A stretch of DNA of 23,789 nt from a virus: positions 1-23,789 of IMG/VR virus record IMGVR_UViG_3300017757_000163, one strand, 5' to 3'. Shown piece after piece: positions 1 through 19,063 of this stretch. A program made the position numbers and the translations under genes. The notes below the pieces were generated by a model. That model did not search any database. It had not been told where the DNA came from and was given only the letters and a program-made list of their open reading frames with translations. How positions within the stretch are numbered: position 1 is the first letter of the stretch; every line of letters begins with the position of its first letter.

Positions 1-402
1 AACAGCACCCCAATATCCACCCAAGCCTCCACCTCCACTAGCAAGCCATATGTTCTCATCATAGTGATCAGATAAACCACGCCTTGAATCAGGAACATAA
101 TTGAGAAAGCAGCTAATAGGTAAGCCACGTGTGGTTCCCCCGTTACTAAGAATAGGAGTGCTAAAACCGAACCAGCCCTTGCTTGCGTAGTCATAAAGCC
201 GCTGTGCAAGATCGAAGTCAGTATGTCCTTGATACGTTGCGCCATAGACCGACGCTCTGGCGAAGGCTTCTTGTGCATGTGTCTCTTCCTCCCAGAAATA
301 ACGGTCTTTTAATGTTTCAAGAGAAAACACATTAAAATCTTTTTCTCTATCGTAGTCAATTTCTATCCCCAGATAGTTCTGCTTGCCAATCTTTGATGTC
401 AT
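1..402 (-). CDS. Ribonucleotide reductase large (alpha) subunit, N-terminal part
   Basis: Only the first 134 residues are in the window; the gene continues past the left edge. The enzyme reduces ribonucleotides to deoxyribonucleotides, feeding phage DNA synthesis in the cytoplasm. The reading shows the typical motif run of RNR alpha subunits: a FSTPILSNGG stretch, then GLPISCF with the conserved active-site cysteine, then DS and a glycine-rich ASGGGGLGG loop. The N-terminus is short, with no room for an ATP-cone regulatory domain. I chose the ATG at 402, because an AGAAGG Shine-Dalgarno ends 9 bases upstream; the in-frame ATG at 411 directly abuts it. The gene overlaps the small gene before it by 47 bases. 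Whether it is class I or class II cannot be settled from this fragment; class I is my guess. Confidence 0.88.
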   Translation of the reverse strand, partial: MTSKIGKQNYLGIEIDYDREKDFNVFSLETLKDRYFWEEETHAQEAFARASVYGATYQGHTDFDLAQRLYDYASKGWFGFSTPILSNGGTTRGLPISCFLNYVPDSRRGLSDHYDENIWLASGGGGLGGYWGAV

Positions 403-523
403 CCAAATCATCCTTCTCTTTTAACTGGGCTTGTCTGTAGCCCTTAGTTCTTGCTTTACTTTTAGATTTCTTTTTCTTCTGAAACCTCTCAGCTCTTTCT
501 GCTTTCCTATCCCAACTTGTCAC
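356..523 (-). CDS. Small lysine-rich basic protein (55 aa)
   Basis: A short frame between the DUF3310 gene and ribonucleotide reductase. It starts with GTG at 523, preceded by GGAG with 7 bases spacing, and overlaps the end of the DUF3310 gene by 17 bases. The product is strongly basic in its first two thirds (a run of lysines near residues 16-24) and acidic at the end (KDDLDD). It has no membrane segment. The function is unknown; the charge pattern would suit nucleic-acid binding, which is only inference. Without it there would be a gap of about 100 bases in an otherwise gapless operon, which supports it being real. The 47-base overlap with the RNR start is a mild argument against. Confidence 0.5.
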   Translation of the reverse strand: MTSWDRKAERAERFQKKKKSKSKARTKGYRQAQLKEKDDLDDIKDWQAELSGDRN

Positions 524-881
524 CCGGATGCTCCAACATGTAACGAATCAAACGCTCTTCATACCAACGGGCCTTACGTAAGTCTTCTATAGGCTTACCT
601 TTGTAACGACAACGCCAGTTATATTTCAGTGCATTACCACGCAAGTATCCAATGTACTCATCGTGTGTAAGCATACCTTGGATAGCATCAATACATTCCA
701 TACCGCCATTGTTGTAATGCTCTGGCCTATGTACAGGATCAAACTTATAATCTCCATATAGGGGATGATCATTAGGATCATTGTTATCATCATAGATATG
801 ATTCCATGTGTCGGCTACAGGTGTTGCGGTTTTTTTCCTAAGTGCATTCCACTCTTCTGGTGTTGCGTCATCAATGCTCAT
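507..881 (-). CDS. DUF3310 family protein
   Basis: A 124-residue protein whose C-terminal two thirds carry the DUF3310 signature found in many phages: HRPEHYN-GG-ECIDAI at residues 51-67, then GYLRGNALKY at 78-87 and the ED-KARWYEERLI helix at 99-112. The biochemical role of this family is not established, although it is sometimes annotated as a nucleotide kinase without proof. The first 45 residues are acidic and asparagine-rich and look unstructured. The ATG at 881 has GGAG five bases upstream and overlaps the endonuclease I stop by four bases (ATGA type), so the two genes are probably translationally coupled. It sits between recombination and nucleotide-metabolism genes, which fits a part in DNA metabolism but does not show it. 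Confidence 0.85.
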   Translation of the reverse strand: MSIDDATPEEWNALRKKTATPVADTWNHIYDDNNDPNDHPLYGDYKFDPVHRPEHYNNGGMECIDAIQGMLTHDEYIGYLRGNALKYNWRCRYKGKPIEDLRKARWYEERLIRYMLEHPGDKLG

Positions 882-1390
882 TGCATCTCCACAGTTAGTT
901 TATCATTTCGTTTTTTAAACTCTTCAGAGTCTTTAGCTTTAACATCAATCCAACTATCTGGGATTGTGTCTTCACTAAACCACCTAAAGTCATTAGCCCA
1001 AGCCCACTCACCGTGTGATCTTTTAGTGCCGTCTTTACGGCGCTTAGCTCCCGGCATAGGGGCATCGGGATTTGCAAACAAGAATACCAACTCAGTATCT
1101 TTGGGTAATTTTTTTCTTACCCAAATATATTTATTATATTCTTGGAAGTCCCAGAACCTACCTTTAGATTCTAAAAGGATTTTTTTACCTTCAATATGGC
1201 GAACAAAGTCTGGCTCATACTTGTGCTCAATTACATAAGGTACTTTATCTACATGGTGCTTCCAATCTTTTAAGATTGATTCGTGAAGAAGCGCCTCCCA
1301 TATAGAATCATACTTATTACCGTCAGGCTTTATAAGTTTTTTAGGGCGCGGTACTCGTCTTTTCCTAGCGCCTGATTTAATTTTTGCCAT
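878..1390 (-). CDS. Endonuclease I, T7 gp3-like Holliday junction resolvase
   Basis: A 170-residue member of the T7 endonuclease I family (T7 gp3 is 149 residues). Such enzymes cut branched DNA, resolve junctions before packaging and help break down host DNA. The PD-(D/E)XK catalytic set is visible: a glutamate in the first helix (E32 in SIWEALLHE, or E37), D61 in YEPDF, and E74 and K76 in LLESKGRF. The stretch after it, FWDFQEYNKYIWVRK, also fits the family. The N-terminal 20 residues are very basic, and there is a C-terminal extension of about 30 residues beyond the T7 length. The start at 1390 has GGAAG about seven bases upstream. It overlaps the preceding gene by 14 bases and the next by four, within the recombination part of the operon. 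Confidence 0.93.
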   Translation of the reverse strand: MAKIKSGARKRRVPRPKKLIKPDGNKYDSIWEALLHESILKDWKHHVDKVPYVIEHKYEPDFVRHIEGKKILLESKGRFWDFQEYNKYIWVRKKLPKDTELVFLFANPDAPMPGAKRRKDGTKRSHGEWAWANDFRWFSEDTIPDSWIDVKAKDSEEFKKRNDKLTVEMQ

Positions 1391-1673
1391 AGATATACTT
1401 CCTATAGCTGTTATTAAACATTGTATAATCTATATTGTTTAAAGTGTGCCCATCTTTTATCATTTTTTTGAGCACGGACACAACCCAAGATCGGGTGTAT
1501 ATACTTTTATATAATGTTTTATTGTTGTAGATATACTCTTGTTGGGACAAGAAATCTTCTACGTTGGCAGGCGTAATTTTATTTTGGTCTTCTTCGGGGA
1601 CTAAAGTGTGCATCCAAGCAGCTAGAATATCTAGACTTTTTTTACGGATCAACTTCATAGTTTTACTGTTCAA
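1377..1673 (-). CDS. Hypothetical protein, 98 aa
   Basis: I do not recognise this protein. It is small, predicted largely helical, and basic at the start (KLIRKK) and near the end. It has no membrane segment and no cysteines. The first codon is TTG at 1673, behind AGGAAG with about seven bases spacing; the later in-frame ATG at 1658 has no comparable site. It overlaps both the exonuclease before it (11 bases) and endonuclease I after it (14 bases), so it is part of a coupled nuclease block. Its position suggests an accessory role in recombination or DNA degradation, but nothing in the sequence shows this. Confidence 0.72.
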   Translation of the reverse strand: MNSKTMKLIRKKSLDILAAWMHTLVPEEDQNKITPANVEDFLSQQEYIYNNKTLYKSIYTRSWVVSVLKKMIKDGHTLNNIDYTMFNNSYRKYIYGKN

Positions 1674-2532
1674 CTATAACTTCCTTAACTCTAGGGGCGT
1701 TAACAACTTTGGTGAAGTACGTCAGACCTTTAGAGTATTCAAATACCCTAAGCCCCTCACCATCATTACTGTCTGCCCAGCAATTAAATTTATGGGGACA
1801 AAACACGCAGGAGCGTGGTAGCTTTTCGTTACCTTTTACTCCTTCGGGTATAGGATTATAGCATTTTTCTGGAGGGGAGTCAAGCTTTATAGCCTTCTTT
1901 AAGTTTTTTATTTTACTTTTAATAGAAGGCTTATCCATATCATCAGGGCGGAACAGACACAACTCTCCGTTTTCTTTGTTGATCACAAGAAAGCCGCCTG
2001 ATTCTGTCCCTTCATGGGCCTCGTATCCCGCTAACTGCGCCATGTATCCGAAGTCATCTTGTTCTGCTAAAGTTCCTTGTGCAAACTTTTTGAATGCAAA
2101 ACCAGAAGCAGTCTTTACATCAACTACTTCACCATCAATTTTACAGTCCATGTGGCCTGTAATCCCCTCCACTACAACTTCTTTTTGCTCATCAGTTACT
2201 GTGTGCCCAGCCAAACGCACAAGCATAAGAAGTAATTCCTCTAGAATATGTCCGTAAAGAAATTTAATTTGCGTGGAAGCTGAATGTTTTTGTGCATGAT
2301 TACTACTATTAATATCATACCAAAGCTGCCTTGAAGGTTTCCCCACGTTACTCATACGCAGCCCCTTTGTTTGTGTCCTAGGCGTAGCCCAGTGTACCAA
2401 AGCGGACTTCATATTCTCACCAAAGTTATATATTATATCATCAGTAAGATCAATATCTTTACCTTCAGACAGTACATCAAGGGTAGAGTATATGTCCTCT
2501 ACTAAAGTGTCTAGAGTTTTAGAAGAGTTCAA
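1663..2532 (-). CDS. PD-(D/E)XK exonuclease, Cas4/RecB-like, phage type
   Basis: A cytoplasmic exonuclease of the kind that replaces T7 gp6 in many marine podophages, expected to degrade host DNA and process phage DNA ends. The catalytic core is visible: GHILEELLL, then GHMDCKIDGEVVDVK, giving D129, D138 and K140 counted from the start chosen here. Near the C-terminus lie four cysteines (224, 242, 245, 251) with spacing C-x17-C-x2-C-x5-C, likely binding an iron-sulfur cluster or zinc, as in Cas4/AddB relatives. The open frame extends to 2571, but ATG codons at 2568 and 2547 lack good ribosome sites. TTG at 2532 has GGAGG five bases upstream and overlaps the previous stop by only 14 bases, so I prefer it (289 residues). 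Confidence 0.85.
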   Translation of the reverse strand: MNSSKTLDTLVEDIYSTLDVLSEGKDIDLTDDIIYNFGENMKSALVHWATPRTQTKGLRMSNVGKPSRQLWYDINSSNHAQKHSASTQIKFLYGHILEELLLMLVRLAGHTVTDEQKEVVVEGITGHMDCKIDGEVVDVKTASGFAFKKFAQGTLAEQDDFGYMAQLAGYEAHEGTESGGFLVINKENGELCLFRPDDMDKPSIKSKIKNLKKAIKLDSPPEKCYNPIPEGVKGNEKLPRSCVFCPHKFNCWADSNDGEGLRVFEYSKGLTYFTKVVNAPRVKEVIVEQ

Positions 2533-3088
2533 GCTGCCCTCCCTCATAAAATAACTTATCAAGTTCATCAACAGCTACGGCAGATCCCATATAAAACCAT
2601 TCTCCTTTACGTCCACGGCCCTCTAGGGTAAGCGCATTGTGTGCCTTACTCTCAGCCTCTCGTCTATCAGAAACTTTATAAGATTTTACAATTTCATAGT
2701 CTCTATAAGGTGATGATGTTTGATATTGTTTTAATCTATCTTTAGAATCTACAGCCATACCTACCTTAACCCAGCCCGGAAACGAAGGGTTATACATAAT
2801 ATATACTTCTCCTTCTTTAGATCTTTCATAGTTTTCTAAAGAACTAAAAGCAGCATCAGTAAAACCTTTGTATCTTCCGGGCTTGTGTAAAGGATGAGCT
2901 TGTGATATATAATTACCATCTACCCACATTCTATTAGAGTTTCTTTTTTCTTTAACAGAAGTTCTTTCTCGGATGTGTCCCCCAGTATGGATACTGGAGC
3001 CATCTTCGGGGTAGTAATACCACCAATCCCCATCCTCAAAAACATGCTTACCTGTTCTAGTGTGTTTCTGACCAGTTGCTTCCGACAT
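2519..3088 (-). CDS. T5orf172 / GIY-YIG-like nuclease domain protein
   Basis: A 189-residue protein with a C-terminal domain (about residues 93-172) matching the T5orf172/Mug113 group related to GIY-YIG nucleases. Visible motifs are VYIMYNP, PGWVKVGMA, RLKQYQTSSP, DRREAESKAH and GEWFY. The N-terminal half is rich in aromatic and charged residues (DWWYYYPEDG) and may bind DNA. Family members include phage and mobile-element proteins that cut or bind DNA; activity here is unproven. The frame opens at 3100, but ATG 3088 has GGAG six bases upstream and is the better start. It lies between polymerase and exonuclease and overlaps them by 32 and 14 bases. It may be a captured homing-type gene that became domesticated. 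Confidence 0.8.
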   Translation of the reverse strand: MSEATGQKHTRTGKHVFEDGDWWYYYPEDGSSIHTGGHIRERTSVKEKRNSNRMWVDGNYISQAHPLHKPGRYKGFTDAAFSSLENYERSKEGEVYIMYNPSFPGWVKVGMAVDSKDRLKQYQTSSPYRDYEIVKSYKVSDRREAESKAHNALTLEGRGRKGEWFYMGSAVAVDELDKLFYEGGQLELF

Positions 3089-4805
3089 GATAATCTCCAT
3101 CTAGCGGACAGTTAAGTCCTAATTGTACACCGGCTTCTATTATAGCACCGATACCTAAGTTTCCCACAGTGTCAGCTATAGTTTCTTCTGCTTCGACCTG
3201 CCATTCATCGTGGACATTGGCGACAACAGAAGCATCTAAATCTTTTATTTTGTCTGAAAAAATAATTAAAGCTTTCTTCATAACAATAGCACCGGCACTT
3301 TGCAACAATGTATTCAAAGCTGAATGCTCACTGCGAACAATAAGCTTGCGACCATCAATACCTTTTATGTATCCTTTCTTGGATGCTCTTCCAACTTTAT
3401 CTTTAAGAGATTTGAATGATGGAAGATTATCGAAGAAAGATTTTCTAAGTCTTGCACCAACGTCCCTACCTCCTCCAGCCACGCTTCCAAGTTTAGGATC
3501 TCCTGCTCCGTATAAGAGGGCATATATAAATGTCTTTGCCTGATTTCTAGATTCAAGTCCTGCAAGCTTTTGGTTAGCTGTGTGGACATCTCCGTTAATG
3601 ATTTCATTTGTGTACTCCTGATCGTCCATATAATGTGCAAGCATTCGCAACTCAAGACCACTAGCATCAATACCAACAAGCTTGTAGCCTTCGGGGACAG
3701 TCCAACAAGCCCGACATTCCTTACCGTACTCAGAAGATAAGCTAGGAACTTGGGCCATGTTGGGACTGTTGTGTGTCATCCGTCCTGTAATAGTACCGTT
3801 AGAATTTATATATCCCCTTACTCTTGAGTCATCGTCACACTCTTTTAACCACGAAGTTATAGAAGCTAAACGCTTTTGTAACATTAAGTATCTTGAGATC
3901 AATTGTGCTTGAGGTATATTTTTTATTTTATTTAGTACACTTTCATTAACGATAGGTTGTCCTGTTGGTGTAAACTTTTTTGGTTTCCAACCAAACTCTT
4001 GTAAGTACTCACCTATTTGTTTTCTTGATCCAAGATTGAAAGGATGAGACATAACTCTTTTAAGTTTTTTATTACCACATATTTCGACATACTCGTCATC
4101 GGATAGTCTTACTCTTTTATTTAACTCTCGGCACTTAGCAAACTTAGATACGGCTCCATCTGCATTGTAAGCGATACGAAGAGTGAACACTTCTTTTTTA
4201 GGCTTGAATACTTTATGTACTTCACGCTTAACATCTTCAAGCTCTTCTTCAAACTTAGCTTCTAAAGTCATGGCATATTTTCTATCAAGAAGTATACCTT
4301 TATTCCTTTGATCATCTATTAATTTGTAAGCTTCGTGTTCTATTTCTACCGACAAAGCAGAGAAACCTTTGCTTTCTCTTTTAAGATATTCGTAAACCTT
4401 AGCGTTCACCATCACGTCATTGATACAATACTTCATCATCTCAGGTGAGTACTCATCAAATTCTACATGTTCTGTTTTCCTATGACCAATCCTAAAGCCC
4501 CAAGACTTTAAGCTATGGCTACCCTCGCGGGTAGGATTAAGAAGACGAGAAAGAATTAATGTATCTCTAAGAATACAATTTTCTGACAGGTCTACACCAT
4601 AAAGTTTTTGTATTGCAGGGACATCGAAACCTATAATGTTATGTCCAATAAGTTTGTCGGCAGTAGACAAAAAAGCTACACCCTCTTCTAGATGATCAGG
4701 ATCAAAGGTGTGTACCTTTTGAGTATCTACATCATAAGCAACAATACACCATGCTTTTGTATAATCTAGACCATCTGTTTCAATATCAAATACTAAATTT
4801 AAAAT
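3057..4805 (-). CDS. Family A DNA polymerase with 3'-5' exonuclease, T7 gp5-like
   Basis: The replicative polymerase, 582 residues if started at the ATT codon at 4805-4803. Exonuclease motif I (FDIETDG, residues 6-12), motif II (GHNIIGFD) and motif III (YCINDV) are present. In the polymerase domain, motif A is GIDASGLELR (D380), motif B is RNQAKTFIYALLYG (R420, K424, Y428) and motif C is VHDE (H532-D533-E534). Tyrosine stands at the position equivalent to E. coli Pol I F762, as in T7 polymerase. There is no ATG, GTG or TTG in frame before 4670, and starting there would delete exonuclease motif I. The ATT overlaps the helicase TAA stop and has GAGG ten bases upstream. The length then fits phage relatives (about 580-590 residues). 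Confidence 0.93.
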   Translation of the reverse strand: MLNLVFDIETDGLDYTKAWCIVAYDVDTQKVHTFDPDHLEEGVAFLSTADKLIGHNIIGFDVPAIQKLYGVDLSENCILRDTLILSRLLNPTREGSHSLKSWGFRIGHRKTEHVEFDEYSPEMMKYCINDVMVNAKVYEYLKRESKGFSALSVEIEHEAYKLIDDQRNKGILLDRKYAMTLEAKFEEELEDVKREVHKVFKPKKEVFTLRIAYNADGAVSKFAKCRELNKRVRLSDDEYVEICGNKKLKRVMSHPFNLGSRKQIGEYLQEFGWKPKKFTPTGQPIVNESVLNKIKNIPQAQLISRYLMLQKRLASITSWLKECDDDSRVRGYINSNGTITGRMTHNSPNMAQVPSLSSEYGKECRACWTVPEGYKLVGIDASGLELRMLAHYMDDQEYTNEIINGDVHTANQKLAGLESRNQAKTFIYALLYGAGDPKLGSVAGGGRDVGARLRKSFFDNLPSFKSLKDKVGRASKKGYIKGIDGRKLIVRSEHSALNTLLQSAGAIVMKKALIIFSDKIKDLDASVVANVHDEWQVEAEETIADTVGNLGIGAIIEAGVQLGLNCPLDGDYHVGSNWSETH

Positions 4806-6469
4806 GGTATGTTATCCTCTTCATTAAAGAACTCGTCGGGCTGCTCATCAAATAATTCTTTGAGCCTTCCTGTGTCATTATCATACAACAAGTGTGTCGC
4901 CATACCTACATCTCCAGTGTATCTAGATTTAAGAACACGAAGGTGTGTGGTGTTTGCCTCTTGTGGATCGTCGCTTTGTTGATTGCGCTCCAAAGCAATC
5001 ACACAGTCACTAAGCTGTGCTATAGATTGGCTGCCTCTAAGGTGCGACAAGCCTACTGTAACACCCTGCTCATGCCCCTTGTTCCCCTCTACACGTCGGA
5101 GGTGGGATACAAGAATCATGCCTGCCCCTGTCTCTTCTACTAGAGATCTTAGTCGAGTCATAATGCTATCAATAGCCCTACGCTCATCGCCGTCAGCCAT
5201 AGAAGATACGAGCATGTGCAAGTGGTCTACTACAATCCATTTACAATCACAACCTATAGTCAAGTAGCGCAGCTTAGAAAATATTTCTTCGATGTCGTGC
5301 TGGCCTAAGTGAGAGTAAATCCACAACCTATCTTTAGCTTCACCTTTGAATAAGGCAGCATGGTGCTTACGCCAATCTTCTTCAGGGAACTCTTCACGTA
5401 TTTGATTGATGTAAAGTTTAGCATTGGCTTCGATAGAGACAATACCATCCACGGTACGATTTTTGTTTTCTTCCAACGCTAGAATACCTACACGATCTTT
5501 AGTATTCTTAATAAGAAAGTGTTCAATTTCTCTAGTGATAGAAGACTTACCAAGTCCCGTGCCTCCGGTCAAAGTAACCAGTTCGCCCTGTCTCATACCG
5601 TAAAGCTTTTCATTGAGGCCATCCCAAGGATAAGGTACAGACTCTTGTTTTTCCCTAGAGAAATAACTGTCATCCATATCAGAGACATTGATAATACCCG
5701 AAGGTGTATACAACCTAGCTGCCCACCAAGATGTCACATAAGCCTGCCTACTGTTCTGCCGAAGCATATCATTAGGATCTTTGAACTCTTCTGGTAGCGT
5801 AAGTATTTTACTTTTGCCGGGGCGGAGTATACGCGCTACTTTTTTAGCAGCCTCGCGTCCTACTTTGTCGTTATCAAAATTAATAACTACGCAGTCAAAA
5901 GATTCTAAAAACTCTAAGTTTTCTTTGACATCTTTGACCGCACCTCCCGCGCCATTCTTTACAGATACCACAGGCCATTTAGAACCAAGCAATTCATAGG
6001 CCGCCATCGCATCGCACTCTCCTTCAACAAGGGTAACGAACTTACCGCCAGCCTGAAAGATTTGCTGCCCGAACAAGCCCGTGTTTTTAGGAGATCCTTC
6101 CCAAGCAAAGTCTTTGTTCTGCACGTTGCGTATTTTAGCACCGCCCATTTCATTGCCATTGTAGTAGGGGTAGAAATGATTAATTACTTTTTGATTTGAA
6201 TCAAGTATAGATTTTACACCGTACTTTTTTACAGTTTCCAAAGAGATTGAACGGTCAGCCAGTGCGTTGAAAGAACCATCACTATAGTTCATTGCATTAC
6301 GTTTATAAGTTTTAAAGTCTGACACAGGGGCAGTGATAGTATCACCTCCTTCATAGTTTTTTAGATATGTATTACAACTAAAACAGTAGCCGTTACCATC
6401 AGCATCCACAGATACAGGGTCACTGCCACCACATTTATTACAAGGCAAATGAAATTTAACAAACGCCAA
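4799..6469 (-). CDS. Primase-helicase, T7 gp4-like
   Basis: A 556-residue bifunctional protein that unwinds DNA at the fork and lays down primers. In order: a zinc-binding primase domain with C10, C13, C29 and C32 (the same spacing as T7 gp4); a TOPRIM domain with VEGECD near 148-153 and NFDNDKVG near 197-204; a linker; then a RecA-like ring helicase with Walker A GGTGLGKSS (302-310), Walker B WIVVDH (411-416) and RVLKSRYTG near 511-519. The C-terminus is acidic and ends in phenylalanine (EEDNIPF), like the T7 gp4 tail that contacts the polymerase. It starts with TTG at 6469 behind GGAGG at seven bases. A terminator hairpin lies just upstream. Its stop codon overlaps the proposed polymerase start. 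Confidence 0.95.
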   Translation of the reverse strand: MAFVKFHLPCNKCGGSDPVSVDADGNGYCFSCNTYLKNYEGGDTITAPVSDFKTYKRNAMNYSDGSFNALADRSISLETVKKYGVKSILDSNQKVINHFYPYYNGNEMGGAKIRNVQNKDFAWEGSPKNTGLFGQQIFQAGGKFVTLVEGECDAMAAYELLGSKWPVVSVKNGAGGAVKDVKENLEFLESFDCVVINFDNDKVGREAAKKVARILRPGKSKILTLPEEFKDPNDMLRQNSRQAYVTSWWAARLYTPSGIINVSDMDDSYFSREKQESVPYPWDGLNEKLYGMRQGELVTLTGGTGLGKSSITREIEHFLIKNTKDRVGILALEENKNRTVDGIVSIEANAKLYINQIREEFPEEDWRKHHAALFKGEAKDRLWIYSHLGQHDIEEIFSKLRYLTIGCDCKWIVVDHLHMLVSSMADGDERRAIDSIMTRLRSLVEETGAGMILVSHLRRVEGNKGHEQGVTVGLSHLRGSQSIAQLSDCVIALERNQQSDDPQEANTTHLRVLKSRYTGDVGMATHLLYDNDTGRLKELFDEQPDEFFNEEDNIPF

Positions 6470-6480
6470 AGTATAACCTC

Positions 6481-6504
6481 CAAAAATAAAGGGGCCGAAG
6501 CCCC
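6481..6504 (-). terminator. Rho-independent terminator or attenuator before the helicase
   Basis: On the minus strand the sequence is GGGGC, a TTCG loop, GCCCC, then TTTATTTTT. This is a five-base GC stem with the very stable UUCG tetraloop and a U-rich tail. It lies between the small coiled protein stop (6511) and the ribosome site of the helicase. Helicase and polymerase have no other visible promoter nearby, so it probably lets only part of the strong SSB transcript through. Confidence 0.8.
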
Positions 6505-6510
6505 TATTTA

Positions 6511-6741
6511 TTAGTCGATACCGTCAAGACTTTCTTGTTCAGGAGCAGTGAGTAACTCCTCCAATTCCTTGGAGAAAGTTATCTCTGCTGCCTGTAACAC
6601 GGCAAGTCTTTTTTGCAGAGCGGCACCCTCGTCACGAACTTCTCGGACAAAGCCTACAAGTACTTGTCCCCTCTCAGGGAGGTCAGCAACATTGTATTCT
6701 TTATCCTCAAAGGTCAAAGTGTTTGTGGCTTCTTCACTCAA
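6511..6741 (-). CDS. Small coiled-coil phage protein (DUF6447-like)
   Basis: A 76-residue acidic protein. It begins with a short beta-type stretch (LTFEDKEYNVADLPERG) and continues with a long amphipathic helix of about 45 residues (VGFVREV through LEELL) that looks like a coiled coil. This layout resembles the small DUF6447 family common in phages, though I am not certain of the match. Its function is unknown. The TTG start at 6741 has AGGAGG seven bases upstream and overlaps the SSB stop by four bases, so translation is coupled to SSB. It is followed by a terminator, so it is the last gene at full expression from the promoter at 7196-7224. Confidence 0.78.
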   Translation of the reverse strand: MSEEATNTLTFEDKEYNVADLPERGQVLVGFVREVRDEGAALQKRLAVLQAAEITFSKELEELLTAPEQESLDGID

Positions 6742-7163
6742 AGCTCTGCCTCCTCTTCACCTTCAATGTCGAACTCATCGACATCGCCGTTATTGTATTC
6801 AACAAGATTTAAGACTTGCATTTTCATAAAGTCAAGACCTTTGAAAGTCTTTCCATTCCATTGCGATTCCCATTCTTTATATTGCACTTTGACATGCGAT
6901 CCGTTACCGACGTTGACATCAATTTCTTGTTTGAGTCTATCCATAAGAACAGGTGCTCTACGAACCATACCATTTGGCCCATTGACTTTACGTTTAATAA
7001 TGATGGCGGGGCCTTCATTCATTTGCTTGACAGTGAAACCACGGTCTTCAAATGCTTGCGCCGTCTCATTATCTACAACTAAGTTGACCGTGTAGCACGG
7101 ATCATAAGTTGTGTTAGGGGTAGTAACAAAAGCCCAATATGCTGTGCCTTCTAGTACTGCCAT
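6738..7163 (-). CDS. Single-stranded DNA-binding protein, phage type
   Basis: A 141-residue protein resembling the SSB-like proteins of marine podophages that occupy the place of T7 gp2.5. The N-terminal MAVLEGTAYWAF, the IIIKRKV-GPNG stretch near residues 54-65, and the GNGSHVKVQYKEWE segment near 86-99 fit an OB-fold beta barrel. The C-terminal 15 residues are acidic (DEFDIEGEEEAEL), as expected for an SSB tail that recruits replication partners, but the tail ends in leucine rather than the phenylalanine of T7 gp2.5. It has its own consensus promoter just upstream and a GAGAGG ribosome site seven bases before the ATG, which suits a protein needed in large amounts. Confidence 0.8.
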   Translation of the reverse strand: MAVLEGTAYWAFVTTPNTTYDPCYTVNLVVDNETAQAFEDRGFTVKQMNEGPAIIIKRKVNGPNGMVRRAPVLMDRLKQEIDVNVGNGSHVKVQYKEWESQWNGKTFKGLDFMKMQVLNLVEYNNGDVDEFDIEGEEEAEL

Positions 7164-7195
7164 TTTTATACCTCTCGTTTGGTTTTGGTGGGGAG

Positions 7196-7224
7196 ATTAT
7201 ACATTGAGTAAGGAATCATGTCAA
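7196..7224 (-). promoter_or_regulatory. Consensus sigma70 promoter for SSB
   Basis: On the minus strand TTGACA (7224-7219) and TATAAT (7201-7196) are separated by exactly 17 bases, a perfect match to the sigma70 consensus. The start of transcription should fall near 7189, about 25 bases before the SSB ATG. The -35 box overlaps the stop codon of the preceding gene. Confidence 0.9.
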
Positions 7225-7514
7225 GCATAATTTCTTTCCCATTGCAATTTTCTTTTTTTCAATCCGTTTTCACGGGCGAGTTTACTGGCATCACAACGTG
7301 CGGCGTACCAATAAATAGATTTAAGTTCCTCCTTTAAAGCTCTGATAGTTAAGGTTATTTTACCCTTGCCGAACAAGGGCACGACTGTGCATTTCTTACT
7401 TCCTATTTTAATTTTACACATTCGCCAGCCATCCAGATAATACCAAGTTGAAAACTCATCGCTGCGTTTAGGGTTCAACAAAAAACTTTTAAGTTTTAAA
7501 ATATCTTCTACCAT
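7221..7514 (-). CDS. Hypothetical protein, 97 aa
   Basis: I do not recognise this small basic protein (97 residues). It has aromatic-rich segments (FSTWYYLDGW, SIYWYAARCD) and a lysine-arginine rich C-terminal end (GLKKRKLQWERNY). There is no signal peptide or membrane helix. The ATG at 7514 follows an AGG at eight bases and overlaps the end of the previous gene by seven bases. Its stop codon TGA lies inside the -35 box of the SSB promoter. It belongs to a run of eight tiny coupled genes that is typical of the accessory host-takeover part of phage early regions, which is the only hint to its role. Confidence 0.7.
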   Translation of the reverse strand: MVEDILKLKSFLLNPKRSDEFSTWYYLDGWRMCKIKIGSKKCTVVPLFGKGKITLTIRALKEELKSIYWYAARCDASKLARENGLKKRKLQWERNYA

Positions 7515-7732
7515 TCACCTAGCCTTTCAATAAACTCAGAGAACAAAACAGATAAGTCTCCATCTTTAATTTTCCAGCAGCCTACTTCGGAACATCTTTC
7601 TTCTACGAAAGAAATGAACCGATGTTTAATCCTATCCGAAGGTGGGCTGGCACCGATTCGCAACGCAAACAATTGGCACCACCAATCGTCTATCTCACTA
7701 CAAAATTCTTCTCGTGGGTCAGTAGCACTCAT
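7508..7732 (-). CDS. Hypothetical protein, 74 aa
   Basis: An unrecognised small protein with an acidic N-terminus, a WW pair (DDWWCQLF) and four cysteines spread over the chain. An ATG at 7738 is in frame, but GGAGG touches it directly; the ATG at 7732 sits six bases behind GGAGG and is the likely start. It overlaps its upstream neighbour by 14 bases and its downstream neighbour by seven, so it is translated as part of a chain. No domain could be assigned. Confidence 0.68.
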   Translation of the reverse strand: MSATDPREEFCSEIDDWWCQLFALRIGASPPSDRIKHRFISFVEERCSEVGCWKIKDGDLSVLFSEFIERLGEW

Positions 7733-7910
7733 TGACATCCTCCAGTTGGGTTTTCAAATAAAGTCTAACAAAAGATTCAGGAAATTCCTCGCCATGTTTT
7801 AACATTAAGTGCAGCGCATCTTCTTGCATTTCATCACTGACATCTTCAAACCCACAATAAATAGTGGAGTAATAAAGAATATGATTACACATGTCTATAA
7901 GGTTTTGCAT
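7719..7910 (-). CDS. Hypothetical protein, 63 aa
   Basis: An unrecognised 63-residue acidic protein, predicted to be mostly helical (a segment around residues 23-40 with DEMQEDALHLMLKHG). It starts at the ATG at 7910 in a TAATG overlap with the HTH gene before it, with GAGG about nine bases upstream. There is no membrane segment or motif. It forms part of the small-gene run. Confidence 0.65.
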   Translation of the reverse strand: MQNLIDMCNHILYYSTIYCGFEDVSDEMQEDALHLMLKHGEEFPESFVRLYLKTQLEDVNECY

Positions 7911-8143
7911 TAAGGATCGCCTCTATCTATACCTGAGTTTTTCACAATACGATTAACAGTGGAGGCAGCAAGATTTAATTTATTACAAATTTTAACTTGG
8001 CGATACCCTTCCCTGTGTAGTTTTAAAACACGAACAGTATTTACTGTAGGTGAGGTCTGTCTTCCGATAGGCCAGTACCTATTGATAAATATGTTATCAA
8101 GATTACGTTGACAATTAATAGCTTTATAAAACATTGAACTCAC
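7910..8143 (-). CDS. Small helix-turn-helix protein
   Basis: A 77-residue protein whose residues 34-70 form a clear helix-turn-helix of the resolvase/transposase type: TVRVLKLHREGYRQVKICN followed by LAASTVNRIVKNSG. No catalytic recombinase domain is attached, so it is likely a DNA-binding regulator rather than an enzyme; the binding site is unknown. It starts at GTG 8143 with AAGGA six bases upstream and overlaps the previous stop by four bases. It is the only small gene of this cluster with a recognisable fold and is the best candidate in the left arm for a transcription regulator of the phage promoters. Confidence 0.75.
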   Translation of the reverse strand: MSSMFYKAINCQRNLDNIFINRYWPIGRQTSPTVNTVRVLKLHREGYRQVKICNKLNLAASTVNRIVKNSGIDRGDP

Positions 8144-8442
8144 GAAGTTTCCTTTCTCTCGTCATATTTATCTCCCCAAAACTCTATATCGTCGTGCAAA
8201 TCTTTTAGGGTATCACGGGCATCAGTAAGCCGATCATATCTTTCAAGACCTGCGGAAGGGACTTTCTCCCTTTGTCTTTCATAGTGTTTAACACGTTCCA
8301 TTAAAGTGTCTTTGATCTCAGCCAGTATAAGCTCACGCAACTGACCTTCAAAATACTCGACGGTACTACTGTTAAGTATAAGCGCATCACGACTCTTAGA
8401 ATGAATCACAAAATGATTTACAAATACATCTATATTATCCAA
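8140..8442 (-). CDS. Hypothetical helical protein, 100 aa
   Basis: An unrecognised 100-residue protein, predicted to be almost entirely helical with alternating charges in residues 30-100, so a coiled coil is plausible (ELILAEIKDTLMERVKHYE, then RLTDARDTLKDLHDDIE). It starts with TTG at 8442 behind GGAGG at nine bases, inside the end of the previous gene (overlap eight bases), and overlaps the HTH gene by four bases. Its function is unknown. Confidence 0.68.
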   Translation of the reverse strand: MDNIDVFVNHFVIHSKSRDALILNSSTVEYFEGQLRELILAEIKDTLMERVKHYERQREKVPSAGLERYDRLTDARDTLKDLHDDIEFWGDKYDERKETS

Positions 8443-8668
8443 CGGTCACAACCTCCAACTCAGTTTCAATCCAAACTTTAGCGCCACACGGTAGAGGGTT
8501 ATCGGGGCAGTAGTAAACACTTACCAGTGGCTTACCTTCAGAGTCTACAACAGCGGCATGGTTAGCCTTTCTATTTTGTTTGTAGTCTTTGACAGTAATC
8601 ACTGGCAACTCAGCACCTTTGGCGTTAGCCTTGATGTTATGTTGATTAACATGGATTCTAGTTTTCAT
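8435..8668 (-). CDS. Conserved small phage protein, 77 aa
   Basis: A 77-residue basic protein beginning MKTRIHVNQHNIKAN and containing VVDSEGKPLVSVYYCPDNPLPCG and a final beta strand (VWIETELEV). I recall very similar short proteins in many unrelated phages of Proteobacteria, but no function is known to me. The pattern of alternating hydrophobic residues suggests a small beta-rich fold. Its ATG overlaps the stop of the preceding gene by one base (TAATG). Confidence 0.75.
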   Translation of the reverse strand: MKTRIHVNQHNIKANAKGAELPVITVKDYKQNRKANHAAVVDSEGKPLVSVYYCPDNPLPCGAKVWIETELEVVTVG

Positions 8669-8847
8669 TAAACATCCTCAGTAATCTGACCATTAGGAAA
8701 AACTTCAGTATAGCCTCTAATTTCAGTAGAGATTATCCTGTTGTCATAATCTGTAAATGAGTAGTCACAGCAATAAACTACATCTTCAGAGTCAACATTT
8801 TCTTCAACTGTAAGAGCTACTTCAACAAGAATTTTTTTAGTTTTCAT
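8668..8847 (-). CDS. Hypothetical acidic protein, 59 aa
   Basis: A 59-residue frame starting at the ATG at 8847, with AGGA about five bases upstream, and ending in a TAATG overlap with the next gene. The product begins MKTKKILVEVALTVEEN, has a CCDY centre and ends in ITEDV; it is acidic and likely beta-rich. The first residues resemble the start of its downstream neighbour only in MKT. Its function is unknown. Correct spacing, coupling and the absence of any other gene here support it. Confidence 0.65.
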   Translation of the reverse strand: MKTKKILVEVALTVEENVDSEDVVYCCDYSFTDYDNRIISTEIRGYTEVFPNGQITEDV

Positions 8848-8911
8848 ACAATTCCTTATCTGTACTGGTATTGGAAGGAGCAGTTTAACACCATGCTCAG
8901 GGTGTCAGGAG

Positions 8912-9868
8912 TTAGGCTGCCATTGGGAACTTTGCTATTACTTGTTGTACCTTTTCAGATTTCTTGACTTGAGCCACTGGAATGTCTCTTGTATTCTTTC
9001 GAGTACCTACATGATGGCTTGACCAATCAGTCAAAGCATTGTAGACAGCCCAGTAAGTTCCACCCATTGTTGGCTTGTATCTTCCATTGTATTGGTGCCA
9101 AGCATAAACCAAAGAAGAATTATTATAGGCCGTCGGCATAGCCATGATTGAATAAGTATCCTCACCTTCTTTTAATTTACCAAGTGCAAACTTAGAACCT
9201 GTCGCCTCTGCAATATAACTAAAGGCTTCTTTGCGACCAACAGGAGTATTAGACCACTCAGCCCAGATCTCATTTTGAGTATCGAGGATACTCATTATCT
9301 TATTCATTTGGTGAGCGCCTTGATCCACACTGAGCTTGTTGGTATGTCGAGCTTTGTAGATTCCAGCGGTCTGCCCAAGGAATACTTGATGGTTTGTGCA
9401 AGCATTTTGCAATGCTCCAACAGTCGCTTGGTAGGGCCATACAGAATTGAATGAATTGATGTGGAGCATCTCAAGAATAGCCGTGTCGCCATCGGGAGTT
9501 GTGATCTCATGGTTAGGCAACTGATGCCGCACAAAACAAACTGCACCATCATCTCCCACTTGAATAGTTTCTTTAATGTTCCGAAGGCTCAAGTTGCTGC
9601 GCTCCAATACATTACGAGCAGTGTCAATCATTTTAGTATGTGACACTGGCTTGTAGCGGTCGCCGTGGATAGCCAGAGCATCGCCGGTATCTTCGCGGTA
9701 GTAAACATGCTTACCCTCAAGTTTAAGTATACCACCAAATTTATCTGTGCCGCTTGCCTTATATAATACTGGCGTAGAGACAACTTCAAAGTCTGCTTCG
9801 CCGTATCCAGCATTTCGCAGATTATCAACTTCTGAATTGTTTCCAAACAAAAAACTAACTGTGTTCAT
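8912..9868 (-). CDS. DUF932 family protein
   Basis: A 318-residue protein of the DUF932 (phage/plasmid-like, TIGR03299-type) family, which is widespread on phages and plasmids and has no proven function. Recognisable family features are VVSTPVLYKASG near residues 29-40, DALAIHGDRYKPVSH near 62-76, the central FNSVWPYQATVGALQNACTNH stretch with its conserved CTN, and the C-terminal TYWAVYNALTDWSSH segment. Its ATG at 9868 has AGGAG five bases upstream. It has its own promoter (10029-10057), a hairpin at the 5' end of the mRNA and a leader of about 150 bases, so it is the first gene of its transcript and probably strongly expressed. Confidence 0.85.
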   Translation of the reverse strand: MNTVSFLFGNNSEVDNLRNAGYGEADFEVVSTPVLYKASGTDKFGGILKLEGKHVYYREDTGDALAIHGDRYKPVSHTKMIDTARNVLERSNLSLRNIKETIQVGDDGAVCFVRHQLPNHEITTPDGDTAILEMLHINSFNSVWPYQATVGALQNACTNHQVFLGQTAGIYKARHTNKLSVDQGAHQMNKIMSILDTQNEIWAEWSNTPVGRKEAFSYIAEATGSKFALGKLKEGEDTYSIMAMPTAYNNSSLVYAWHQYNGRYKPTMGGTYWAVYNALTDWSSHHVGTRKNTRDIPVAQVKKSEKVQQVIAKFPMAA

Positions 9869-9975
9869 ACGAACTCCTGATTATAAAATTATGAGTTGCC
9901 AGCTGCTCATTGCCACTCTTTAAAGGCTCCACAAGGGAGGTGGCGGGTCAGGCTTCACGGTGCCTCCAACCGTAC

Positions 9976-10025
9976 CCCTAGAAAAACTAGGAAGGTCGTA
10001 AGACCTCCTTCCTAGTTTTCTAGGG
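9976..10025. repeat. Bulged hairpin with GTCGTAAGAC apex, copy 1
   Basis: An inverted repeat with a 22-base left arm (9976-9997), a GTAA loop and a 24-base right arm (10002-10025). The right arm carries an extra TCC triplet near the apex, and the left arm has one extra A. The leftward transcript from the promoter at 10029-10057 would begin at its edge, placing the hairpin at the mRNA 5' end. It shares apex and bulge with the hairpins at 11061-11113 and 12050-12120. Confidence 0.85.
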
Positions 10026-10028
10026 AGA

Positions 10029-10057
10029 ATCTTAAAGTATTTTAACTGCGATGTCAA
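10029..10057 (-). promoter_or_regulatory. Sigma70-type promoter for DUF932
   Basis: On the minus strand TTGACA (10057-10052), a 17-base spacer and TAAGAT (10034-10029). The -35 box is perfect and the -10 box matches four of six. The expected start near 10022 is at the edge of the hairpin. The -35 box overlaps the stop codon of the GP88-like gene, in the same nine-base context (GCTTGACAT) as the SSB promoter. Confidence 0.75.
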
Positions 10058-10863
10058 GCGACCAACTGTAAATTATTAGGGTCTGCAAAGAAATTCAGAT
10101 CGCCTTGCCCCTTGAGTCTTTCTAGTTTTGTAGATCCTTTGCGTGTTAATTTACCGACGGTGCCCTCCTCATCTAAAAATCTCAAGTCGGTGGCATCAAA
10201 GTCTGCTAACTCTACAGTATTACCAAACAACTGTATATTATTAGGTATCTTGAACTCGCCTTTGCACTCTTTAGTATTAAAGGATATTGCAATGTTGAGT
10301 CCAAGATCTGTAGCAGTTTTAAGTTGCCCAATAGTCTTGACACTATTTAATGATGCCGAAAATGTGAGATGATAGTTAGACAAAACATTACGAGTAACGC
10401 GGTGTAGAACCTTTGTGTAATCATAAAATTGTATGTTAGGCAACGATGCGATAAGATCAGTCCATACCACATCACTAGTACCGTTCAGTCTGATACAATA
10501 ATTGTCAGTCTCATTGCGTAGTATCTCGGCCCGTAATCTTTCTTTGAAACCATCAGGATCTTCAAGATATTGCACAGTTCTACGAGTCATAGCCCTCTGA
10601 GCATTAGACATTCCAAGTCGGCCCGAAGATCTAAGACAGGGTTCTTTACACCCAGCAACATCAGCATAAGCACATAAAGTATTACGCGCCACAAGATCAG
10701 CGGGTTGCAAATACAATATACCTGTGGTATAATCTTGCTTTTTAAAGCCTTTTAAGATCTTAGTAGAACTATTAAACCCCATTAAGGGTAAATTATAATT
10801 ATATATATACTCCTTAATAGGTTTAATAGTCTTCAAAGTTATTGCGTTTATTCTATTCACCAA
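10054..10863 (-). CDS. GP88-family phage protein
   Basis: A 269-residue protein resembling the gene product 88 family of phages, whose function is unknown. Visible features are a cysteine group (C64, C72, C76 in LCAYADVAGCKEPCLRSSGR), the RRTVQYLEDPDGF stretch, RLNGTSD at 125-131, FYDYTKV at 146-152 and HLTFS at 165-169. The cysteines suggest metal binding, which is inference. TTG at 10863 has GGGAG seven bases upstream; GTG at 10860 is an alternative. It overlaps the small gene before it by 11 bases. Its TGA stop is embedded in the promoter for the next transcript. Confidence 0.75.
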   Translation of the reverse strand: MVNRINAITLKTIKPIKEYIYNYNLPLMGFNSSTKILKGFKKQDYTTGILYLQPADLVARNTLCAYADVAGCKEPCLRSSGRLGMSNAQRAMTRRTVQYLEDPDGFKERLRAEILRNETDNYCIRLNGTSDVVWTDLIASLPNIQFYDYTKVLHRVTRNVLSNYHLTFSASLNSVKTIGQLKTATDLGLNIAISFNTKECKGEFKIPNNIQLFGNTVELADFDATDLRFLDEEGTVGKLTRKGSTKLERLKGQGDLNFFADPNNLQLVA

Positions 10864-11047
10864 AGGCTTTCTCCCATTCTTTAGGTGTTATTCCTGACAC
10901 TATAAACTCACGTTGATCATCAGTCAAATCTGGCATTGCATCTTGAATTAACATACCACCCTGCCAGTTATTAAACTGTTCATAAGTGATAGGCATATCA
11001 ATAATGCGACGAACACCAGTTAACATAGATTGTTTTTCGATCAGCAC
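10853..11047 (-). CDS. Conserved small phage protein, 64 aa
   Basis: A 64-residue protein of a type I recognise from many phages: an SMLTGV motif near the start, then a helix with YEQFNNWQGGMLIQDAMP, then LTDDQREFIVSGITPKEWE. The family has no function known to me. It starts at GTG 11047, five bases behind a perfect AGGAGG; the overlapping ATG at 11049 is out of frame and hits a stop at once. The gene lies 13 bases downstream (leftward) of the large hairpin at 11061-11113, so the hairpin borders its ribosome site. Confidence 0.8.
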   Translation of the reverse strand: MLIEKQSMLTGVRRIIDMPITYEQFNNWQGGMLIQDAMPDLTDDQREFIVSGITPKEWEKAFGE

Positions 11048-11060
11048 ATTATCCTCCTGT

Positions 11061-11113
11061 TCCCTTTTTAATCTTTAGAGGTCGTAAGACCTCCTCTAAA
11101 GATTAAAAAGGGA
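11061..11113. repeat. Bulged hairpin with GTCGTAAGAC apex, copy 2
   Basis: An inverted repeat with a 23-base left arm (11061-11083), a GTAA loop and a 26-base right arm (11088-11113) that differs only by an inserted TCC triplet next to the apex. The stem sequence differs from copies 1 and 3, but the apex and bulge are kept. The base of the stem overlaps the terminator at 11105-11125, so on the leftward RNA the two compete for the same UCCC and U-run. Confidence 0.88.
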
Positions 11114-11125
11114 GCCGAAGCTCCC
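11105..11125 (-). terminator. Rho-independent terminator with UUCG loop
   Basis: On the minus strand GGGAGC, TTCG, GCTCCC and then five Ts: a six-base stem with a stable tetraloop and a U-tail. It ends or attenuates transcription coming from the 11221-12001 genes before the 11047 gene. Confidence 0.82.
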
Positions 11126-11220
11126 ATTATTTAATTAGTGCAGCCGCAAGAATCCGGATTGGCTACCATCTCAGGAAGCTGCACCATAACCATACTAATG
11201 GTTATAATTTTAGTTTGTAA

Positions 11221-11490
11221 CTAAGCGGAATCCTCCGGGGTAATTCTTTGAACTAACATCACGATCATTTGCGCGACATCCCATTTATCAATCTGCCAAA
11301 CTTTAGTTTTATTAAACTTGGCAGCCACCACATCTTCAAATCTCGCTAACACCGCAGTATGGAGTTCAGGATTCATTTGAAGACTACCAAGTTCAGAAGT
11401 TAACATATCAACTGCATGTTCAAACTTCATCAATTGCATAAGTTCAAAAGATACATCACGGCGCTCATCGACAACAACAGAATTAGTCAT
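11221..11490 (-). CDS. Hypothetical helical protein, 89 aa
   Basis: An unrecognised 89-residue protein, predicted mainly helical (FELMQLMKFEHAVDMLTSELG, then TAVLARFEDVVAAKF), with a hydrophobic stretch near the end (VAQMIVMLVQ) that is too short and amphipathic to be a clear membrane helix. The open frame reaches 11565, but the ATG at 11490 has AGGAG five bases upstream and follows directly after the stop of the 29-residue membrane peptide gene, so I take it as the start. Its function is unknown. Confidence 0.72.
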   Translation of the reverse strand: MTNSVVVDERRDVSFELMQLMKFEHAVDMLTSELGSLQMNPELHTAVLARFEDVVAAKFNKTKVWQIDKWDVAQMIVMLVQRITPEDSA

Positions 11491-11498
11491 ATTGACTC

Positions 11499-11588
11499 CT
11501 AAGAAAAAATTACAATAATGAATGGGGTCAGCGGAGCTGCTAATAGTGCAACCACTGGTATCCAAATATCTAAATTATATTTATCCAT
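11499..11588 (-). CDS. Very small membrane peptide, 29 aa
   Basis: A 29-residue frame from the ATG at 11588 to TAG at 11499. GGAG lies five bases before the ATG, and the stop codon overlaps the ribosome site of the next gene. After a short polar start (MDKYNLD) the rest is one hydrophobic stretch (IWIPVVALLAAP, then FIIVIFS) long enough for a single membrane helix with a proline kink. Such tiny early membrane proteins in phages can affect the host envelope or exclude other phages; here this is only inference. Spacing on both sides argues strongly that it is translated. Confidence 0.65.
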   Translation of the reverse strand: MDKYNLDIWIPVVALLAAPLTPFIIVIFS

Positions 11589-11597
11589 AAAAACTCC

Positions 11598-11617
11598 AAA
11601 AGCCCCCCGAAGGGGGC
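11598..11617 (-). terminator. Rho-independent terminator with UUCG loop
   Basis: On the minus strand GCCCCC, TTCG, GGGGGC and then TTTT. It directly follows the stop of the 124-residue gene and should limit readthrough into the small membrane peptide gene, whose ribosome site begins just after the T-run. Confidence 0.82.
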
Positions 11618-11626
11618 CAAGTTAAA

Positions 11627-12001
11627 TTAGATCATTCCGAGATCAGCGGCAGTCGCAAGACGAGGAGCCGAAGAGGTTTTAAAGTTCTTTGACTGCTTTG
11701 GATTTGCAGTGATTTTAACTTCTTTGTTGGATTTCAAGTCATCAGTTCGGAGAACTTTGATATACTTCGACGCAGCGGAAGTCTTACCGTTGATTTTTTT
11801 CACCGAAAACAATTTGTTGATATCCCCAGCCAAAGGCTGTCCTTCGTGAACCGACTTGATCGAAGCCCCAAAGCGGGCTTTGAGTTTATTAAACTCAAAC
11901 TTCTTGAGGTCATTCTCACCGATGAATTTATATGCCAAAGTCGCAGCACAGGCATAGATCGCTTTGTCGGTCGCAGGTTTTGTCAAATCATACTTAGCCA
12001 T
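11627..12001 (-). CDS. Basic hypothetical protein, first gene of the leftward arm
   Basis: An unrecognised 124-residue protein, rich in lysine and alanine and basic overall. The N-terminal half looks helical (DKAIYACAATLAYKFIG, then LKKFEFNKLKARFGASI); the C-terminal half is basic and low in complexity (TANPKQSKNFKTSSAPR), suggesting a disordered nucleic-acid-binding tail. It is the first gene after the strong leftward promoter at 12712-12740, so it should be made very early and in quantity; a host-takeover or DNA-binding role is inference. Its own terminator follows. The ATG has only a weak GGGA upstream, held in the loop of a small hairpin (12002-12017, AATCG/CGATT) that touches the start codon. 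Confidence 0.78.
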   Translation of the reverse strand: MAKYDLTKPATDKAIYACAATLAYKFIGENDLKKFEFNKLKARFGASIKSVHEGQPLAGDINKLFSVKKINGKTSAASKYIKVLRTDDLKSNKEVKITANPKQSKNFKTSSAPRLATAADLGMI

Positions 12002-12783: not shown

Positions 12784-13167
12784 ATGAAAAAAGAATTGAC
12801 AACGAAACAACAGACTTTCTTAGATTATTTAGTCGAGACAGGAGGTGATCCAAAGCAAGCAGCAGATTTAGCAGGCTATGCTCCTAACACTCATTGGCAA
12901 GTAACTAAAGCCTTAAAAAATGAAATAATAGATCTAGCCTCTAATATTCTAGCTCAATCTGCACCTAAAGCTGCCATGAAGCTTGTGCAAGTTATGGAGT
13001 CTGAAACACCTATGCCTCAAGTCAATGTAAGACTACAGGCAGCCCAAACGATTTTAGATCGCACAGGGCTAGGAAAAGCAGACAAACTAGATGTCAGTCA
13101 TAAGGTAGAAGGAGGGATTTTTGTGCTACCCGCTAAAGAAGAGGTAGTAATTAATGTTGAAACGTAG
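12784..13167 (+). CDS. Terminase small subunit
   Basis: A 127-residue protein with the features of small terminase subunits, which recognise phage DNA and load it on the large terminase for packaging. The N-terminal region (residues 5-33: LTTKQQTFLDYLVETGGD, then AADLAGYA) is a helix-turn-helix of the terminase type. The middle is helical (ILAQSAPKAAMKLVQVM, then RLQAAQTILDRTG), as needed for ring assembly. The C-terminal HKVEGGIFVLP matches the end seen in relatives and may contact the large subunit. The ATG at 12784 has no Shine-Dalgarno and coincides with the predicted transcription start. It overlaps the next gene by 14 bases and is followed by the large terminase. Confidence 0.85.
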   Translation: MKKELTTKQQTFLDYLVETGGDPKQAADLAGYAPNTHWQVTKALKNEIIDLASNILAQSAPKAAMKLVQVMESETPMPQVNVRLQAAQTILDRTGLGKADKLDVSHKVEGGIFVLPAKEEVVINVET

Positions 13168-13378
13168 GTCAAGTTCTACAATTCCATTTGGATATGTGCT
13201 TTCTGAAGATACTAAGTTTCTAGAAGAGGTTCCAGAACAACTAAATATATTAGAAGAAATAAAGCCTCTGATAAAGGATAGGTCTTTAAGTTTGCGCGAA
13301 GGGGCTATGTGGGTTGAATACAAAACAGGCCGTAAACTAAGTCACGCTGGTCTAAAAAAGATTGTAGATAATGAATGA
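13154..13378 (+). CDS. Small HTH-like protein between terminase genes
   Basis: A 74-residue protein of a type often seen beside terminase genes in podo- and siphophages. It shows the RSSSTIPFGYVLSED start and a C-terminal helix-turn-helix-like part (LSLREGAMWVEYKTGRKLSHAGLKKI). That second part resembles the DNA-binding helices of recombinase proteins, but no catalytic domain is present. It may bind DNA during packaging or regulate late genes; neither is shown. The start at 13154 lies inside the end of the small terminase gene (14-base overlap), with GAGG about nine bases upstream. Its stop overlaps the large terminase start by eight bases. Confidence 0.78.
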   Translation: MLKRRSSSTIPFGYVLSEDTKFLEEVPEQLNILEEIKPLIKDRSLSLREGAMWVEYKTGRKLSHAGLKKIVDNE

Positions 13379-17230: not shown

Positions 17231-17288
17231 GCTAGAGACACTTCCTGAACAAGTAGACGAAGCACTTAATAGGAAAGATTATGACTAG
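17055..17288 (+). CDS. Small helical protein overprinted on the portal 3' end
   Basis: A 77-residue frame that overlaps the last 176 bases of the portal in another frame and runs 58 bases beyond it. The product (ARKLAPIVKDKRQWEALKEYLNN, then SELDLFRSQGKLSSLARLE) has the pattern of small helical proteins found just after portal genes in other phages: a tryptophan helix, an acidic helix, then an RxQGKL motif and a leucine-rich end. The overlapping portal tail is low-complexity, which suggests that this frame is the constrained one. The next gene begins inside its end with a good ribosome site (AGGA six bases before ATG). Its function is unknown; head assembly is a guess from position. Confidence 0.7.
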   Translation: MLDKALARKLAPIVKDKRQWEALKEYLNNLKTLELQVLVAATSELDLFRSQGKLSSLARLETLPEQVDEALNRKDYD

Positions 17289-18120
17289 AAGTTTTGATAT
17301 GGAAGCAGGATATAGATCTATGTTGGAAGATTTTCAAAAGTCTTATGCTAAGGCTAAGACCCCTGCTGAAAGAAAAAATATTGAGTCTAACTTTCAAAGG
17401 GATACTGGAAACGTCAGTGATATGACTAAAATTGCTGTCCACAAAAAAATAGAAGAGGAACGTAGTGCTGAAGAACGTGCAGCAAGATCCGGAAAAGCAA
17501 AAGGTGGTTTACCAGATCTTACAGGCGATGGAAAGATTACTCAGGCAGATGTCTTAAAAGGACGTGGAGTATTTAACGAAGGTGGCTCAATGATGATGCC
17601 CCCTGAAGGTATGCCAGTAGATACCTATCCTAACATACCAGAAGATGAAATGGATGAAGCACTGGCTTCGCAGCTTCCAGATGATGAGATGGAAGACGAT
17701 TATATTAGTTACGTCATGGATGAATCCCTTGACGATGATGAACAAGATTACCTAGCAGGTGTATTACAAAATGATCCAAGACTATCAGATATCTTGGACA
17801 AAGTAATTACAGTTGCTAGTGAGTTTTCGGGTGCTGGCGAAGTAGACGGCCCCGGAACTGGTGTATCAGATTCTATCCCCGCTCGTTTGAGTGATGGAGA
17901 GTTTGTATTTACCAGAAAAGCGACCGACCAGATTGGCGCGGATCAGCTTCAAACAATTATGGATGATGCTGAACGTGCTTATGATGGTGGTTATCAAATG
18001 AAGGCTATTGGCGGTTATATGCAAGAAGACCCTAAAGAGCAAGATTCACCCCTCAGTCAAACCGATGAGGAAATCAAAAAGCTTATGGTGGGTGCAAATA
18101 AGATGCCTAGTCTTCGATAA
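17281..18120 (+). CDS. Virion-associated protein with dockerin-like calcium loop
   Basis: A 279-residue acidic protein. Residues 1-70 are charged helices. Residues 79-90 (DLTGDGKITQAD) match a calcium-binding dockerin/EF-hand loop, followed by VLKGRGV. A methionine/proline stretch and a very acidic part (about 115-165) follow. Near residues 195-225 is SDSIPARLSDGEFVFT, then a segment with IGADQL, a signature I know from structural proteins of marine podo- and siphophages. It lies between portal and scaffold and so probably belongs to the head or internal virion proteins; the exact role is unknown. It starts at the ATG at 17281, with an eight-base overlap with the gene before. Confidence 0.75.
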   Translation: MTRSFDMEAGYRSMLEDFQKSYAKAKTPAERKNIESNFQRDTGNVSDMTKIAVHKKIEEERSAEERAARSGKAKGGLPDLTGDGKITQADVLKGRGVFNEGGSMMMPPEGMPVDTYPNIPEDEMDEALASQLPDDEMEDDYISYVMDESLDDDEQDYLAGVLQNDPRLSDILDKVITVASEFSGAGEVDGPGTGVSDSIPARLSDGEFVFTRKATDQIGADQLQTIMDDAERAYDGGYQMKAIGGYMQEDPKEQDSPLSQTDEEIKKLMVGANKMPSLR

Positions 18121-18126
18121 TTTTAC

Positions 18127-18197: not shown

Positions 18198-18213
18198 GTG
18201 AAGGAGATTGAGA

Positions 18214-19035: not shown

Positions 19036-19063
19036 TTAATTGTGTTATTAGGAGAATATTAAC

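Follow-up and report, generated by a model that had tools for sequence, protein, structure and literature searches.

A conserved AUU codon as the probable start of a T7-type DNA polymerase gene overlapping the primase-helicase gene in uncultured marine viruses

The T7-type DNA polymerase encoded in a viral genome record is in all probability translated from an AUU codon (4805-4803, minus strand), by reinitiation or coupled initiation after translation of the primase-helicase gene upstream. This reading, to which we give a probability of roughly 0.85, is drawn from the sequence of the junction between the two genes and from its conservation in related contigs. The polymerase reading frame (3057-4805, minus strand) comprises 582 codons from ATT to stop. 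Upstream, it is closed by a TAA (4814-4812, minus strand). Between this stop and exonuclease motif I, the frame reads CAT ACC ATT TTA AAT TTA GTA and then continues with TTT GAT ATT GAA ACA GAT GGT. ATT is the sole near-AUG codon between the upstream stop and the motif, and no ATG, GTG or TTG is present in the frame from that stop down to 4670. The first of these codons is the TTG at 4670-4668 (minus strand), 45 codons past ATT. An earlier note on this DNA had described a frame that is closed by TAA a few codons above ATT and codes for motif I upstream of TTG 4670 without a standard start, and codons and coordinates bear this out. It had also stated that the ATT overlaps the helicase TAA, which holds for the frames but not for the codon. 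The helicase gene ends with ATA CCA TTT TAA, its stop being located at 4801-4799. The frames overlap by 7 bases (ATTTTAA, 4805-4799, minus strand), and this overlap is kept in relatives. One base separates the ATT codon from the TAA, and the two share none. A Shine-Dalgarno-like GAGG had been correctly placed ten bases before ATT (4819-4816, minus strand); this spacing of 10 nt is above the optimum according to E. coli rules, which may not be those of the host. The GAGG lies within GAG GAT, and GAGGAT is kept in every AUU lineage, whereas a sister clade with UUG start has CAGGAT (CAG GAT) instead.

The window, i.e. the whole stretch of DNA analysed, spans 23,789 bases and constitutes a virus record of IMG/VR. 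It is organized in two divergent arms, with replication genes at 1-12001 (minus strand) and structural genes at 12784-23789 (plus strand), and the GC skew changes sign near 12 kb. Downstream in the polymerase arm, a phage endonuclease I-like gene (Pfam PF05367) is located at 881-1390 (minus strand). Portal protein and large terminase are closest to those of the pelagiphages HTVC115P, HTVC103P and HTVC104P and further off from those of Puniceispirillum phage HMO-2011. A scan of bacterial genomes yielded no near relative that points to a host.

The frame started by ATT carries the Pfam domains DNA_pol_A and RNase_H_2. With DNA_pol_A and an N-terminal 3'-5' exonuclease that contains motif I, the protein is a family A polymerase of the T7 type. 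In a fold search, the best 27 matches were all T7 polymerases, and in a sequence alignment with T7 DNA polymerase, residue 4 of the query corresponds to T7 residue 2. As in T7 gp5, the same polymerase fold is combined with the same position of motif I. The motif, FDIETDG (4790-4770, minus strand), contributes D7 and E9. Their aligned counterparts in T7 are D5 and E7, both of which are replaced in listed D5A/E7A structures. Across 15 relatives, F6, D7 and E9 do not vary. In the AlphaFold model (mean pLDDT 83.9), strand 1 is formed by residues 3-10, with a mean pLDDT of about 92 for residues 1-10. It is followed by strands at 18-25 and 30-34 and by a helix at 36-46. According to this model, the first 44 codons thus cover strands 1-3 and helix A of an exonuclease of the T7 type.

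These codons are under purifying selection. Between AUU relatives, omega amounts to 0.06-0.26 in the first 44 codons (pN well below pS) and to 0.03-0.17 in the rest of the polymerase. Due to this selection, the first 44 codons can be considered both translated and needed. This bears on the TTG at 4670, which is the first canonical start and the choice of a standard gene finder. Initiation there would yield a polymerase without the first part of the exonuclease, at the cost of strands 1-3, helix A and D7/E9. Because the 44 codons upstream are selected, motif I is invariant and three strands as well as helix A would be lost from the fold, TTG 4670 is excluded as the main start. Furthermore, in all relatives outside the AUU clade among the matches listed, motif I is preceded by a canonical start. 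A start at TTG 4670 is, in our view, hardly credible.

A sequencing or assembly error as the origin of the missing start codon was rejected, because the arrangement is present in 14 contigs from 14 metagenomes and in divergent subgroups. The exact junction pattern was detected in 13 IMG/VR viral contigs. A degenerate scan, in which the third base of the Pro codon and the downstream codons were left open, recovered 14 contigs of the class without canonical start, each with its own metagenome id, and in addition one unrelated polymerase with ATG. The carriers form a small set of marine viruses known only from uncultured material. Four polymerase subgroups carry the junction, with protein identities down to 69-72%, and the others are 25-31% divergent in protein from the subgroup of the window. 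Polymerase identity is 96-100% within the group of the window, 75% for L087, 72-73% for L094 and L095 and 72% for the L083/L092 subgroup (complete L083). Within its own subgroup, the window deviates from other contigs by up to about 9% of the nucleotides in the polymerase region. When relatives of this class were aligned at the junction, as had been suggested in the earlier note, ATT, 7-nt overlap and motif I all proved to be conserved.

Among the matches listed, the distinct relatives with at least 59% identity comprise 51 with an ATG start of the polymerase, 14 with TTG, 3 with GTG and 11 with none of these. For the cultured HTVC104P, the annotation gives the polymerase a GTG start that overlaps the primase stop. 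TTG starts were observed in several other clades of this polymerase, too (L014, L024, L039, L049, L063, L096, L100, L101, L111), so that weak polymerase starts have arisen repeatedly. In the polymerase tree, AUU is found in three lineages inside one clade (support 98/94, 15 rows). The same clade also holds a nested UUG subclade and one AUG tip.

Is its role as a start the reason why ATT is retained? The codon arises from CCA TTT, which codes for Pro-Phe at the C-terminus of the helicase. Since CCATTT also encodes this PF tail, part of its conservation is owed to the helicase. ATT might therefore be kept passively through Pro-Phe, and the polymerase might be expressed via coupling whatever the codon. 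The wide conservation of the PF-stop tail is in line with this explanation, as is the presence of ATT in relatives with an AUG start. However, the helicase tail fixes CC, TT and the stop, and the third base of the Pro codon is left free. With a canonical start, this base is A, C, G or T; without one, it is only A. All 14 junctions without canonical start from the degenerate scan, in which this base was open, have A. Among 45 distinct PF-stop junctions, the 10 without canonical start all have A and thus the proposed AUU, whereas the other 35, which start with AUG or UUG, show A in 15, C in 4, G in 6 and T in 10 cases. The difference (10/10 vs 15/35; Fisher p 0.001) is also seen in the near clade alone (10/10 vs 3/10; p 0.003), both values ignoring shared ancestry and resting on only three deep AUU lineages, which makes them weak at the lineage level. 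In place of ATT, relatives with a UUG or AUG start show GTT, TTT and CTT: GTT is found in three of the four tips of the UUG subclade and TTT in the AUG tip L005. Across the AUU lineages, GAG GAT nnn ATA CCA TTT TAA is invariant. Synonymous sites are near saturation across these lineages, and shared fourfold codons are unchanged in 26 of 156 cases among four lineages and in 11 of 75 among seven taxa (15-17%). For GAG, GAT, ATA, CCA and TTT to be all unchanged, the product of base rates, calculated post hoc, is 0.002. Purely passive retention of ATT hence appears improbable. AUU is conserved past coding need, partly confounded by the PF tail of the helicase. As judged from these alignments, the choice of AUU was retained while the surrounding DNA changed and is, hence, probably meaningful.

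The sister phages L003, L104, L108 and L113 have the same helicase-polymerase junction with the same spacing. They differ in that their helicase stop is UGA, here UAA, and that UUG, a canonical though weak start located one codon downstream, overlaps this UGA (TTGA). The UUG aligns exactly with UUA 4802-4800 in the window and is only one base apart from it, so that UUA itself might serve as start codon. Against this speaks that two of the three bases of UUA deviate from AUG and that its spacing to GAGG would be 13 nt. Moreover, its use would let the preceding ATT vary as in the UUG clade, but ATT does not vary. Initiation at UUA is therefore considered very unlikely. Replacing a single A of the helicase stop with G would give the stronger UUG; UAA is kept in three lineages.

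As an alternative, the earlier note had mentioned a helicase-polymerase fusion produced by a -1 frameshift. Such a slip of the ribosome close to the helicase end is conceivable in that the polymerase frame is -1 to that of the helicase and stays open across the final bases ahead of the helicase TAA. The slip would have to fall within AAC ATA CCA TTT, and no slippery X XXY YYZ heptamer is found there. The longest run in this stretch is four T, which is too short for usual transcriptional slippage. In relatives, helicase and polymerase occupy separate frames, the start being AUG or UUG and the spacer variable, and the helicase stop is retained right after the PF tail. In addition, no stimulatory hairpin is conserved (z 0.94 in the window; absent from relatives). 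A frameshifted fusion thus has very little in its favour. A conserved RNA hairpin that hides the start was considered separately and rejected: The fold of the window covers both GAGG and AUU, but does not stand out against shuffles with its z of 0.94, and in RNA folding of L094, L006 and L004, this GAGG/AUU pairing is not shared.

The upstream gene (4799-6469, minus strand) encodes a primase-helicase with Toprim and DnaB-type parts (Pfam DnaB_C and Toprim_2) that ends with EEDNIPF. According to a comparison of starts, it apparently begins at a TTG (6467-6469, minus strand). TTG is found in L087, too, and ATG in L104, L092 and L094. The idea that a weak start of the helicase goes along with AUU at the polymerase was rejected for lack of consistency, as among the AUU carriers the window and L087 have TTG and L092 and L094 ATG. 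The helicase tail (4799-4828, minus strand), FFNEEDNIPF, is acidic and ends with IPF, and the terminal PF is kept in many relatives. It presumably resembles the acidic, Phe-ended tail of T7 gp4 and the DDDIPF tip of bacterial SSB. We take T7 gp4 to be a replicative primase-helicase with an acidic Phe-ended tail, as found here. Compared to what we assume to be the gene order and start in T7, the genes here overlap, and the polymerase is devoid of a canonical start. The top fold match of the polymerase, PDB 6p7e, shows T7 polymerase together with a peptide from a primase-helicase tail.

The proposed initiation at AUU would proceed as follows. Ribosomes finishing the helicase at UAA 4801-4799 would restart at AUU, four bases upstream of the stop. 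The initiator tRNA would read AUU as Met and yield (M)LNLVFDIETDG, and the predicted N-terminal peptide of the product is MLNLVFDIETDGLDYTK. Alternatively, ribosomes might be recruited by GAGG, which could be exposed or kept open by translation of the helicase. Since initiation at AUU is weak, a low polymerase output compared to helicase is expected, probably a fraction of the helicase level. By analogy with the strength of AUU measured elsewhere, it is plausible that AUU limits polymerase output. In E. coli, IF3 disfavours non-canonical starts, and reinitiation drops when IF3 is in excess, an effect that is smaller in the presence of a Shine-Dalgarno sequence (PMC2268962). Both reinitiation and any regulation by IF3 are steps that we infer for the virus. 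It might be speculated that AUU is a selected, helicase-coupled throttle that responds to IF3 or to the initiation state of the host and fixes the helicase to polymerase ratio, but this idea is tentative and rather doubtful.

AUU starts are known from other systems, as the earlier note had rightly pointed out for E. coli infC. According to citations in PMC13009471, infC and pcnB of E. coli have AUU starts that hold expression down; the AUU start of infC also appears in the reference list of PMC2268962. The polymerase resembles both in that AUU would be the sole start and initiation weak. However, infC and pcnB are host genes, infC being autoregulated by IF3, whereas here a phage replication gene overlaps an upstream stop. 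In Yersinia pestis, rcsD-HPt has a functional AUU start inside a longer coding region, which was demonstrated by mutation (PMC10191623). In contrast to the conserved two-gene overlap here, it arose by a frameshift in a host regulator. Staphylococcus aureus cvfC1 uses a conserved AUU that was found by retapamulin ribosome profiling and supports about 10% of AUG output (PMC13009471). Unlike the polymerase, cvfC1 is the first gene of an operon and has a very strong extended Shine-Dalgarno sequence.

A limited search of open-access papers, which comprised few subscription papers, found no phage polymerase started by AUU. What is unusual is not an AUU start as such, but its conservation inside a gene overlap and at the replicative polymerase of a phage. 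Gene finders restricted to ATG, GTG and TTG would trim 45 residues including the catalytic motif from these polymerases. Furthermore, the clade provides a natural series of AUU, UUG and AUG at one overlapping junction, with which the strength of starts and their coupling can be tested directly in the replisome operon of a phage.
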